64,000 nt of DNA from Nymphaea colorata (taxonomy: Eukaryota; Streptophyta; Magnoliopsida; Nymphaeales; Nymphaeaceae): NCBI RefSeq assembly GCF_008831285.2, contig NC_045140.1, positions 7,188,505-7,252,504 of the forward strand, read 5' to 3'. The translations under genes were made by a program, and so were the position numbers. Shown here piece by piece: positions 17,005 to 23,531 of the stretch (its first letter is position 1; each line of letters starts with the position of its first letter). The notes under the pieces are model-generated. The model was not told where the DNA came from. It saw nothing but the letters and a program-made list of their open reading frames with translations, and ran no database searches.

Positions 17005-19512
17005 CAAATTATTACTTATGGAAGAACAACATGAATGTTCTCTTGTTTCTGAAGGCTATGCATCTTACAGTATTTGCTACTCAAAAGCCCAAAACTAATT
17101 AAAATGTCTATAGTCATATTCAACATAAGACTCGCACAATGACAATGTAATCAAGCTTGAAAATTTGTATGTCTCAAAGACTGGCAACAACACATTGTAT
17201 TTGTTTAGACGGATGACATAACTTAAGTGAAAAAAAAAAAGAAAATTCTATAACCGATCACTTTAATGAGTTTCAAAGGCTTATTAATTAAGTGTTTGTT
17301 ATAAATATTAAATTTGTGTATGAAGTTGTAGAGCTATGGATGCTTGCCACTCTATCAAATTCATGGGAGACATTTAAATTCTTACTTACCAACCAACTCC
17401 AAATGGTGTTGTCCCTATTTAAATGAAAAGATAAGAACAAAGTCTCAACATTGTTCTCCACAATTAGATGTGTTTGTTATTGAGAATAAGGTAGAAGCAA
17501 ATTCAATAGTGAGAAATGTAGTGACAAAAGCTGAAGCAAATCGAGGTCAAGATACAAGAATGCCATCATTGTAGTAAGAAAGGGCATATCAAAAAGTATT
17601 TATTTCGATCGAATAGGAAAAATAAAAGTAATGAAACACAAGAAAAGAAGAATTAAGATAATGATGATCATGACGTCGTGGCTGCACATAATGACCTAGT
17701 TGTTGTTCATGATGAAGATGTCATGAACTTGTTATGTCATGATATGAGTTGGTTGATTGATAGCAGTACCTCTTTCGTGTTAATGCAACTAAAGAGTTCA
17801 TTGTTATTTATACTTTTGGTGATTATAGATTGTTGAGAATATGTAATGATGGTTTGTCACAAGTTATTGGTATGTAAAATTGCAAACCAACATTGGAGCA
17901 ACGTTCAAGGATGTCAGACATGTGCCAGACATACATTGGAATTTGGTTTAAGCTAGAAGCTTGATTATGATGGCTTATGTAGTACCTTCAGTAATGATAG
18001 TGAAAGCCCCCTCATTTGCTATCTCTCAAGGTAAAAAGTATAATAACTTATATGTTATGCATGTCACAATTTCTAAAGATGTATTGCATGTAACAGAAGG
18101 AGAAACCTACTAAGTTGTGTGACAAGAGGTTAGGAAGTGAACAAGGTCTTGATTGTTTGATTAAAAAGTAATAGTTCTTAAGGTGAAGAAAGAAAAACTA
18201 TAAAGATATATTACTTGGAGAAAGAAAAATTATAAAGATATATTACTTGGTTGGGAAAGAAATGAGTGCATTATTTAACAATCACATATCTTCAAGAAAG
18301 AAGAAATTGTTAGAGCTTCTTCACTCAGAGGTTTGTGGTCCACTGAAGGTTGGCACACATGTTAGTACACTTTATTTTGTCACTTTCATTTATGATTATT
18401 CAAAACAGGTGTAGGTCTATACTTATAAGATGAAAGACCAAATGCTTGCTACATTCAAGCAATTTCATGTTCTTGCTGAAAGAGTGGTAGAAAGAAAGTT
18501 GAAGTATGTACACAGTGATAATGGAGGTAAGCATTTGAGTCCATTTGATGAATACTGTAGGATGCATAGTGTAAGACATCAAAAGGCTCATCCTAAAACT
18601 TCTCAATTAAATGGTGTAGTTGAGAGGATGACATATAACTCTTACTGAGAGAGTTGGAAGTTTATTGTCTAAAGGCATAGTTGCCTAATTCTTTGTGAGA
18701 TGAAGCTTTACATATTGTTATACATGTAGTTAATTTGTCTCCTCTTGTTTCTTTGAATAGTGCTGTTACAAATAGAATTTAGTTTGCTAATAAGGTGTCA
18801 TATGATCATCTACATGTTTTGGATGCAAAAAAATTGTATATGTTCCAAAAGATGAAAGTTAAAAATTGAAAGCAAAGACTTGGTTTTTTGGGGGTGATAT
18901 TTGAAAAGTTGATAGACTAGAACCAATCTCTAGATTTGACTTTCACTTTTGAATACCAAATAATTCTATTAGGAGTCAATACACAAAGATTTAGGGTCAT
19001 GGTGAGTTTGGGTACAGATTTTAGAATCCTATTGAGAAGAAGCTTGTTAGAAGTGGAAATGTAGCTTTCGTTGAGAATTAGACTATTGAAGATATTCATA
19101 AAGTAGTTGATAAAACATTTTAGTATTAAGGCAAGGTAATTGATGTGGATCATGTTTCTTTATCTTCTTTCCACAAGTTTTGTTGAAAATTACACACATG
19201 AGAATGTTAAAATTTGCAACAAAATGTTGGCCAGTTAGATATGTCTAATGTTGATGACAGTAGATAGTTTGAAGTTTGTTCTTCAAATGCAGAGTCACAT
19301 TGTAAATCCACTAAAGAGAGAATACAATCGATAAGGTATTCTACAAGTGAATATGTTTTGTTGACAGATGGTAGAGAACTTGAGAGCTATAAAGAAGTTA
19401 TGCAAGATGTGTAGAAAAAAGAGTGGATTGAAGTCATGAAAATGAGATGCAATCTTTATATGACAAGTATATCTTGGAGCTTGTACTATTACCTAAATGT
19501 AAAATGACTTTA
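17005..19512 (+). pseudogene. copia gag-protease-integrase-RT, 5' part (broken)
   Basis: Decayed gag begins near 17005 (a WK..M block) and includes a W-E-T-F-K segment near 17370. A zinc knuckle CHHCSKKGH near 17560 has lost its last cysteine. The protease segment near 17750 reads SWLIDSS where D-S/T-G is expected. The integrase core lies at about 18300-18640, with LHSEVCGPL, HSDNGG and a conserved downstream ERM block. The RT start near 19420-19510 ends at the TTA where the DNA transposon inserted. Several in-frame stops (for example near 18415 and 18645) rule out function. Confidence 0.7.
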
Positions 19513-19962
19513 GGTAGTGTTTGATGGCTAAGAATTTTAGAATTGGAAATATATTTCTGGAAATATATTTCCTGGAATAAAGGAATGAGAAAAATCTTTC
19601 CGATTCCCATTTTGATGTGTGTGTGATGACTGAGAAATATATTTCTAGAAATATATTTCTGTGTTTGATGATAAAGAAATATATTTCCAAAATTATATTT
19701 CTGTGTTTGATAATAAGGAAACATATTTCCAGATTTACATAAGCTTATGGACAAGTCAGGACAGGATTTCATTACTTTCTTGGGGGCATACTGATGTATT
19801 GGACCTGCTAGGTCAGTTGATTTTGGATCAGGCTGACAGAAAAGCCAAGCCAGTCACAGCTAGGATAAGATACAATATCCTGGTCATGGCTTAAAAACTG
19901 CCATATTATTAAACTTTATTAATTTATGAACTAAGACAGTTGATCGAGTAACAGTTGAGTAC

Positions 19963-20532
19963 CAATTGGATCCGAAGAATCAACAATGATTACATCATAA
20001 GTTCCACTTGGTGCATCCCTTAAAAATTCTGTTGCTGCAGAAAATAAATAAAAACTAGTCAGTATAAATAGATTTCCTGCATAACATATCGCATTTAATA
20101 AGCAAAAAACCCAACTAGTAATTTCAAAAACACAAATTTCAGACACCGTAAAAAATGATGCTTTAAAGAACAGTAAATTTGCTCATCTTGAACTTACAAG
20201 ACTTGCATAACCAACATTCATAAAAAAAAGAAGGATCTATGCATACCATCACCAACATGTAGATGAACACGAGGATCCTCAAACCCTATGTACAAATCTG
20301 GGAAAAATTGCTTGGATACCTATAAAAGAAGAAGATTTCTTTGCATTATGTTGGGCTTCCAGAAAATACAAGCATCTTTCAAACTGTTACTATTGATATA
20401 GGCACTTCCATGTAAGAGATGACTTACATTAATGACCATTTCATCGATTTCACATATATCAATGCGTTCAACAGACGGATGCCTAGAGATTTCCCTAAGA
20501 ACACCACCATCACCACCTCCAACAACCAAAAG
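19963..20532 (-). pseudogene. Captured spermidine synthase fragment, three exons with introns
   Basis: On the minus strand three exons lie in gene order with GT-AG borders: 20532-20428 ([18 protein letters not shown], then ICEIDEMV), 20319-20247 (VSKQFFP, then GFEDPRV and HVGDG) and 20034-19963 (FLRDAP, YDVIIVDSSDPIG). They cover the core of plant spermidine synthase, including the GGGDGG loop that binds decarboxylated S-adenosylmethionine and the catalytic-site D-S-S-D-P segment. The family transfers an aminopropyl group to putrescine. N-terminal and C-terminal exons are absent, so no enzyme can result. Frames are open within each exon. Retained introns show capture from genomic DNA, not from mRNA. 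Confidence 0.85.
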
Positions 20533-21764: not shown

Positions 21765-22200
21765 TCAACAGTAAGAAGAAGACCAAGAATGTTGAAACCC
21801 TCACCTTGTTAAGGAGCTTCACGAGGGAATCCTTACAGTGGGGTCGCGGCAGTAGGAAGAAGGCTATAACAGTGAGGAACTTGAGGCAGCAGGACCTGCG
21901 GCTGCGTGAGGATGAAGAGGGCTGCAGCTGCAAGAGGCGAGTGGTGTGAGGAGCTGCGGCTGCATGAGGGAAGAGCGAGGGAAGAGGCAGGAATTCTCGA
22001 CCGTGCCCTAACCGTCCAAAAAAAAGTTTCGAAAATATATTTCCACCCCTCCAGGTGGAAATATGTTTTCGGAAACATTATTCCGGAATCGACCTGAACG
22101 GTCGAAAAAATAATTCCGCGTTTGATACACAGGAATTTTATTAAAATTTTGAATAATCTTTCCTGAGCTACAGTAGAATCCCTGCGTATCAAACACTACC

Positions 22201-23531
22201 TTAATGAATTGTTGGGTTTTTAGAGTAAAGCATTGTGAAAAACTCTTCATACCCAAAGTATAGAGCTAAGTTGTGAAAGACTCTACTCATAAGAAAAGAC
22301 TTGACTTTGAAGAAATATTTTTATCCATTGTCAAAATGTCTTTCACTAAAGTTGTCTTGAGTTTGACGGCAATCCACGTTTAAAAGTTGAGTAGATGGAT
22401 GTAAAGACAATATTTTTCCATGATGAAATTAAAAAATATATATATGTGATGCAACCTGAAGTGTTTGAAAAGAAAAGAAAAAGGATTGCATTTGTAGGCG
22501 GTGGAAGAAATGCTTGTTAAGAAATTTTCAAATGATGATTTTGTTATCTTATTGCATTATGTTGACAACATGCTCATTGTTAGTAAGAATACTTTAAGAA
22601 ATGTTAACTTGAAGAAAGAGTTTGACAAAGCATTTGCCTTGAAAGACTTGGGACATGAAAATCAGATTTTGGGCATGAAGTAAATTTGTGATAAAAAAGC
22701 AAATAAGTTATTGTTATCACAAAAGTACATTGAAAAGGTATTTTCAAGATTCAACATAGACAAGATTAAAGTAGTGAGTACCTCACTTGGAGCACAGATT
22801 GAACTGAGTATGAAACAAAGTCCTTTTATAGATGAAGGAAAAGAGGACATGGAGAAGATTCTATATGCTTTAGCAATTGGTAGGTTGATTTATGCTATGG
22901 TGTGTACTAGGCCAGATATTATTCATGCAGCTAGGTTTGTCAGTCATTTTCTCTCAAATCCTGGTAAAGAGCAATGGAATGGTAAATAGATTTTAACATA
23001 TCTTCTAGACACTAGCAGTTTGTATATTTGTTTTGGTGAGCATAAACCTATTTTGGTAGGTTATACCTGATGTGGCAAGTGATGTTGATAAAAATTCATA
23101 TCTAGTTATTTAAACACTTTAGCAAGTGGTGCAGTACCATTGTACTTTAGACTTCAAAAGTGTGGGATACTTCCTACTACAAAGGCAACATTTATTGCAA
23201 TGACAAAGGTTAGTAAAGAGTAGTTGTGGATGAAGAAATTTATGCATGAACTTAGTCTCATTCAAGAAAAGTATGTTTTATCTTGTAAATGTTAGAATAT
23301 GATTCATCTTGGCAAAAATTCCACTTTTTATGCAAGATTGAAGCACATTGATGAAAAGTATCATAGGATACCTCATGTTTTAGACACAAAACAACTTGAA
23401 CATGAGAATATTCACATGGGTGATAATGGCGCTGACATGATGACCAAAGAGTTACCCCATTCAAATCTTCAAGTGTGTTACTTCGTCGATGGTTTAGCAA
23501 GATCATTTGCACAATCACTGAAGGGGAGATG
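22201..23531 (+). pseudogene. copia RT-RNase H, 3' part (broken)
   Basis: Directly after the second TTA, the RT frame resumes with the conserved W-V-F-R-V-K block (22215-22232). The D-F-E-E-I-F and V-K-M segments follow near 22305-22340, and the catalytic region YVDNMLI (YVDDM in active copies) near 22560. RNase H follows to about 23480, ending with the typical KHID, DNGADMMTK and LPH segments. Stops at several points break the frame. A polypurine tract closes the coding part. Confidence 0.75.

Follow-up and report, generated by a model that had tools for sequence, protein, structure and literature searches.

A PIF/Harbinger-type element of Nymphaea colorata likely to have taken up pieces of two host genes in steps

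How cut-and-paste transposons take up genes that lie far away from them is an unsettled question. The question is posed by a stretch of 64,000 nucleotides from the water lily Nymphaea colorata (contig NC_045140.1, positions 7,188,505 to 7,252,504; hereafter the window), in which an element of 2,688 bp, here named W, carries pieces of a spermidine synthase (SPDS) gene and of a gene of the ALG6/ALG8 family. We consider it likely that the following holds as a whole: W belongs to a PIF/Harbinger family as a non-autonomous, Pack-type element, it lies in an old copia reverse transcriptase, and it captured the two pieces stepwise, with gap repair. The ALG6/ALG8-family piece is called ALG8 below, which serves as a label only, because neither the Pfam model nor the solved relative separates ALG6 from ALG8.

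W occupies window positions 19513-22200 (element positions 1-2688), its ends being read from the terminal inverted repeats (TIRs) and the target-site duplication. An earlier note on this DNA had bounded the feature at 19510-22203, with a perfect 13-bp TIR and TTA on both sides, and these coordinates proved exact; the repetitive subterminal DNA that it described consists of 42-bp units. Its statement that no transposase lies inside also held, in that DDE_Tnp_4 (PF13359) gave no match in W among the 150 of 307 genome candidates scored. Because no transposase was found inside it, any movement of W would depend on transposase from its kin. All but approximately 47 bp of W is accounted for by family ends, SPDS and ALG8, as listed here in window coordinates.

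18913-19512, forward strand: left flank, old copia reverse transcriptase (related copies; copia reverse transcriptase named from the translation)
19510-19512, no strand: left target-site duplication, TTA (flank comparison)
19513-19525, forward strand: left TIR, GGTAGTGTTTGAT (inverted copy of 22188-22200 without mismatch; agrees with the G(N)5GTT motif)
19513-19749, forward strand: 5' terminal block of the element family, element positions 1-237 (copies 85-97% identical genome-wide)
19618-19733, forward strand: subterminal tandem repeats, 42-bp units (repeat scan; TIR core TGTTTGAT twice inside)
19752-20887, reverse strand: SPDS piece with introns, element positions 240-1375 (93% to donor G000:C1:39082216-39083377)
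19963-20034, reverse strand: SPDS exon, AG/GT borders kept (donor alignment)
20247-20319, reverse strand: SPDS exon, AG/GT borders kept (donor alignment)
20428-20532, reverse strand: SPDS exon, AG/GT borders kept (donor alignment; PF01564)
20888-20893, no strand: filler of approximately 6 bp at the SPDS/ALG8 junction (junction alignment judged by eye)
20894-21275, reverse strand: 5' portion of the intron that follows ALG8 exon 1, element positions 1382-1763 (donor L011 on contig C12)
21276-21745, reverse strand: 3' part of ALG8 exon 1, element positions 1764 to approximately 2233 (open frame; splice donor kept; PF03155, 5.2e-40)
21746-21784, no strand: approximately 39 bp, unassigned, at the junction of ALG8 and the 3' end (also in L013; junction alignment)
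21785-22200, forward strand: 3' terminal block of the element family, element positions 2273-2688 (family copies elsewhere in the genome)
22188-22200, reverse strand: right TIR (perfect over 13 bp against the left TIR)
22201-22203, no strand: right target-site duplication, TTA (flank comparison)
22204-22400, forward strand: right flank, the same copia reverse transcriptase continued (related copies; translation)

A search with the left flank led to eight loci that were fetched, comprising the window itself and seven others. At all seven non-self copia loci (7/7) the site was empty and the sequence continuous, with no 2.7-kb insert. These empty sites ruled out a misread copia region in place of an insertion, and nesting in a copia reverse transcriptase, as proposed earlier, was borne out. 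Given that the seven related copies are only 73-78% identical to the left flank of W, the host retrotransposon appears to be old. Only two pairs of perfect 13-bp inverted sequences 0.5-8 kb apart with matching 3-bp flanks were present in the window, W and an AT-rich one; the latter (TTTCTTTTAAAAT, positions 35507-37178, flanks AAA) is perhaps a product of chance. The window also contains, at 16326-16538, a perfect run of 62 TA units next to runs of TC and of AT.

The ends of W belong to a family. The terminal 15-mer GGTAGTGTTTGATGG was found 124 times in 408 Mb (63 forward and 61 reverse occurrences), compared with 0 for the reversed control, a difference that excludes chance TIRs. A search with the whole element, in which 40 of 783 first-look candidates were scored and 34 regions fetched, returned 64 matches, mostly to the two ends or the end repeats. 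A TIR scan allowing up to two mismatches gave 17 end pairs including W, a doubtful 6.2-kb pair (L030, flanks TTT and TGA) being excluded from the count. Exact 3-bp duplications were present at 13 of the 17 pairs (TTA, TTT, TAA, CAG, TAA, TTA, TCA, TTA, TTG, TAA, TTT, TGA, and GAA), and the flanks differed at L023, L025, L026, and L027. The duplications are AT-rich, with TTA or TAA in 6/13 and TTA in W; the corresponding share in published packFinder sets is 52.4% for rice and 81.2% for maize. The expectation that other copies would have TTA flanks was thus correct for the copies and too strict for the flanks. Paired 15-mer ends approximately 1 kb apart, among the matches listed, occur at C1:24970635-24971619, C2:2186404-2187590, C2:28639129-28640187, and C9:11490310-11491366, and these four loci are probably short family members.

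The TIR of W (GGTAGTGTT) fits the G(N)5GTT motif described for PIF/Harbinger ends (PMC2213677), and the ends of the related element L035 match each other in inverted orientation over 20/20 bp. The element L022 on contig C14 has the same TIRs as W, TTA on both flanks, a predicted transposase (DDE_Tnp_4, PF13359, 3.5e-16), and an open reading frame 1 (ORF1) at L022:4052-4417 with a Myb-like domain (Myb_DNA-bind_3, PF12776, 4.3e-18). The transposase-bearing relative with the same ends that the earlier note had recommended seeking was therefore found. By coordinates, DDE_Tnp_4 matches also fall within L015, L020, and L042, the TIR scan having found one end only for the L042 element; in a second Pfam scan of ten frames, five were without a match and one had weak matches only. 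Because the TIR motif, the duplication length, and the transposase and ORF1 of the kin all fit, we assign W to PIF/Harbinger, in agreement with the initial classification as Pack-type. Over the long parts shared with L022, L014 is 98-99% and L020 97-99% identical, which suggests from the sequences that this branch moved recently. At L029, frames judged by eye to be transposase-like and ORF1-like (L029:1244-3253 and 7124-7552; one DDE_Tnp_4 match in 1244-3253) appear to belong to a second PIF-type family and flank a member of W's family on both sides. Searches mainly of the open literature, repeat databases not included, found no publication on the element family of W, and those for PIF-Harbinger in Nymphaea returned nothing relevant; the family may be new, whereas its kind is already known.

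Both gene pieces could be traced to parental loci, for which the earlier note had called. The SPDS piece aligns at 93% with C1:39082216-39083377, and a further SPDS exon adjoins this donor stretch. In W, the Pfam model Spermine_synth matched one exon frame at 4e-15 and two others at 1.8e-4 and 7.7e-4, which taken alone are under the curated cut-off. The three SPDS exons of the C1 donor, when joined, were best matched by solved plant spermidine synthases (7e-36), with thermospermine synthase at 8e-11. The second piece, matched by Alg6_Alg8 at 5.2e-40, is 90% identical in DNA to a gene on contig C12 (L011) that covers profile positions 1-481 in order. The only solved relative of the donor exon was Man9GlcNAc2 glucosyltransferase (2.4e-26), and NCBIfam gave no match for the ALG8 frame. 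Pfam places the two pieces in the spermidine/spermine synthase and ALG6/ALG8 families, without separating ALG8 from ALG6. Each piece aligns to its donor locus including intron sequence. Other matches to the Alg6_Alg8 family, with profile positions in order, lie at C1:38114489-38118400 and C104:13787-14910, and the whole-element search listed no DNA match to W at either. The C1 and C12 loci are intron-rich; the C104 match, on a small contig, is compact with few gaps and may be of foreign origin or a processed copy. Among the places scored, W alone has the SPDS and ALG8 pieces next to each other, so that within this genome they do not stand side by side outside a TIR element, the finding that the earlier note had named as one that would count against it.

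The distribution of the two pieces among related elements differs. Parts of the ALG8 piece occur in nine loci (W, L010, L012, L013, L014, L016, L020, L022, and L024, the last with 74 bp only), four of which retain transposase and/or ORF1: L022 has both together with a remnant of the ALG8 intron, L014 has ORF1 and ALG8 intron, L012 an ORF1-like frame with ALG8 intron and exon, and L020 transposase and ALG8 intron. The intron part of W at 20894-21275 is thus shared, wholly or partly, with kin that have transposase or ORF1. An 11-bp stretch absent from the C12 gene is common to W, L010, L012, L014, L020, and L022, which fits a single ALG8 capture unless the C12 gene lost the stretch. SPDS sequence, in contrast, was found outside its donor in W only, among the places scored. 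At the position of SPDS in W, the sibling L010 has a piece of a sugar-transporter gene (PF00083, 9.1e-35), the donor of which lies at C12:14861107-14862165 (95%). The pieces of L010 overlap at their junctions by 4 and 5 bp, the SPDS/ALG8 junction of W having the short filler. On the ALG8 side, 7 bp separate the break of L010 from that of W, and L020 breaks approximately 14 bp further on, as judged from alignment ends.

Three further features of these elements were observed. The breaks of W, L010, and L020 all fall within approximately 21 bp of the ALG8 intron (L011:2268-2289). In L010, on contig C10, positions 3068-4944 contain part of the ALG8 exon in two copies, with repeats between ALG8 and the 3' end. 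Capture also extends beyond W and the ALG8 carriers: the complete element L018, with a CAG duplication, contains at L018:1210-3150 a piece resembling PEP mutase (PF13714, 7.8e-6, short of the family cut-off) that recurs at C14:10370531-10372475 and C8:12269867-12271687 with 98-99% identity and has a possible donor on C1 (91%).

Given this distribution, the double capture was probably stepwise rather than a single event, a coding element acquiring ALG8 initially and SPDS later taking the place of the transposase block. In a first step, an element of the coding lineage would have acquired, beside its ORF1, the 5' portion of the ALG8 intron with some of exon 1. In the lineage of W, the block with transposase and ORF1, which starts approximately 237 bp in from the left end and reaches the ALG8 intron, would then have been swapped for one contiguous SPDS piece. 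The swap would have occurred when repair of an excision gap was interrupted after both arms had been partly recopied, an unlinked gene serving as template and the ends being joined through a few bases of filler or microhomology. Such gap repair with a template switch is suggested because the ends were kept, the middle is a single contiguous foreign piece, and the junctions show little or no homology. Under this model W may already have been in the copia sequence when its transposase block gave way to SPDS. For PIF elements of Medicago, an explanation by abortive gap repair has been put forward (PMC2213677).

Several observations weigh against this history. Divergence from the donors, at 22 differences in 369 positions for the ALG8 intron and 49 substitutions in 1,130 aligned bases for SPDS, barely resolves the order of the captures, so that this order rests on the distribution among copies. 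The 11-bp stretch could have been lost from the C12 gene rather than gained by the elements. In the tree of 5' ends, L014, L020, and L022, with L016 and L024, fall in a different clade from W, with several weak supports; exchange between lineages is possible on these sequences, given that coding ALG8 copies lie in that other clade and the supports are weak. Movement after the SPDS capture is not demonstrated, because SPDS was found in no copy other than W. Finally, neighbouring insertions that were joined and then underwent deletion could have produced similar junctions.

The last of these points corresponds to the strongest alternative, the neighbouring-insertion model (Catoni / Gisby) published for Pack elements including Pack-PIF (PMC8903248). 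In its terms, two elements, including the ALG8 carrier, would have inserted so as to flank the SPDS stretch, their inner ends would have been deleted, and the outer ends would have mobilised the whole. We regard this alternative as possible but rather doubtful for W. That the model is already published and covers Pack-PIF speaks for it, as does the relation of the two ends: the left end of W has its nearest counterparts in L017/L018/L019 (96-99%) and the right end is 85% identical to L018 and 92-94% to L010/L013, as fusion of two elements might give. The process would, however, have been needed twice with the same layout, for SPDS in W and for the sugar transporter in L010, and the ALG8-side breaks of the two events lie within 7 bp. 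L010 also groups with W at both ends in the end trees, the 3' grouping being weakly supported. Moreover, no internal TIR was left in W when two mismatches were allowed, and no element end was found in the donor stretches fetched for SPDS and the sugar transporter. We therefore favour interrupted gap repair over neighbouring insertions, without regarding it as proven. The placement of W and the coding ALG8 copies in different 5'-end clades is accounted for by neither model without exchange or loss.

It is improbable that W is a working chimeric gene in which ALG8 exon 1 is spliced to three SPDS exons. The four pieces do lie on one strand with GT/AG splice borders, the phases on the two sides of the fused intron are compatible, and the predicted spliced frame is open over 246 codons, but the first Met is residue 81, within the ALG8 exon, and SPDS is truncated on its 3' side. 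The ratio of nonsynonymous to synonymous substitution rates (dN/dS) for the ALG8 piece between W and L012 is 0.85 over 115 codons, close to neutral. The lower value of 0.27 between W and the host gene is explicable by constraint on the host gene, given the 0.85 between copies, and selection on the captured exons was rejected on this basis; the SPDS exons show two synonymous changes and one nonsynonymous change, too few for dN/dS. The captured pieces look like neutral passengers. Less probable still is that the ALG8 intron piece is transposon sequence that inserted into ALG8, since the match runs unbroken from intron into coding exon in W, L010, and L012 and the C12 locus spans the whole family profile in order, even though parts of the stretch occur in element loci that have no ALG8 exon (L014, L016, L020, L022, and L024).

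W resembles the maize and rice Pack-PIF elements (Gisby and Catoni 2022, PMC8903248), which are non-autonomous PIF-type TIR elements with pieces of host genes. In maize Pack-PIF family 18, four elements contain pieces of two genes, the second as an additional insertion; those pieces measure 163 and 58 bp, whereas those of W measure approximately 1.1 kb and 0.85 kb and include intron sequence. A further difference from the Pack-PIF elements as described in that source is that kin of W with transposase or ORF1 still hold parts of the first capture. PIF elements of grapevine, Pifvine-3 (Benjak et al. 2008, PMC2528002), similarly have a long 5' region matching grapevine exons and introns, with some captures common to several copies; in the water lily, unlike in the description of Pifvine-3, the capture lies beside ORF1 and derivatives traded the coding block for a second gene piece. 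The PIF/Harbinger elements of Medicago (Grzebelus et al. 2007, PMC2213677) share with W the G(N)5GTT ends, 3-bp duplications, and, in some, tandem repeats, and their derivatives were ascribed to abortive gap repair. The text of that account contains neither "captured" nor "gene fragment," whereas here the gap seems to have been filled from unlinked genes. Published precedents therefore exist for Pack-PIF, for the capture of two genes, and for PIF elements that combine a transposase with captured exons and introns. Both pieces of W do retain intron sequence, as the earlier note had stated, and yet a double capture of this kind is less uncommon than it had suggested, because two-gene, intron-bearing captures and Pack-PIF are in print.

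A review of 2026 notes that an undiscovered capture mechanism may exist besides neighbouring insertion (PMC13317346). Only tentatively do we raise the broader idea, which we hold to be unlikely as it stands, that the family of W is a gene-swapping machine: coding elements, having acquired a host piece, would trade their transposase block over and over for a new host gene through gap repair from unlinked loci, with breaks at a preferred spot, as the closely spaced ALG8-intron breaks of W, L010, and L020 might indicate. If true, this would strongly support repair-based capture in PIF/Harbinger, for which the published model considered here is neighbouring insertion. The two models of capture can be checked against each other here because one genome contains coding kin, intermediates, two second captures, and the donors. 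The related copies in this one genome display the likely steps of capture unusually clearly, and the water lily host would extend Pack-PIF capture to an early-diverging flowering plant.

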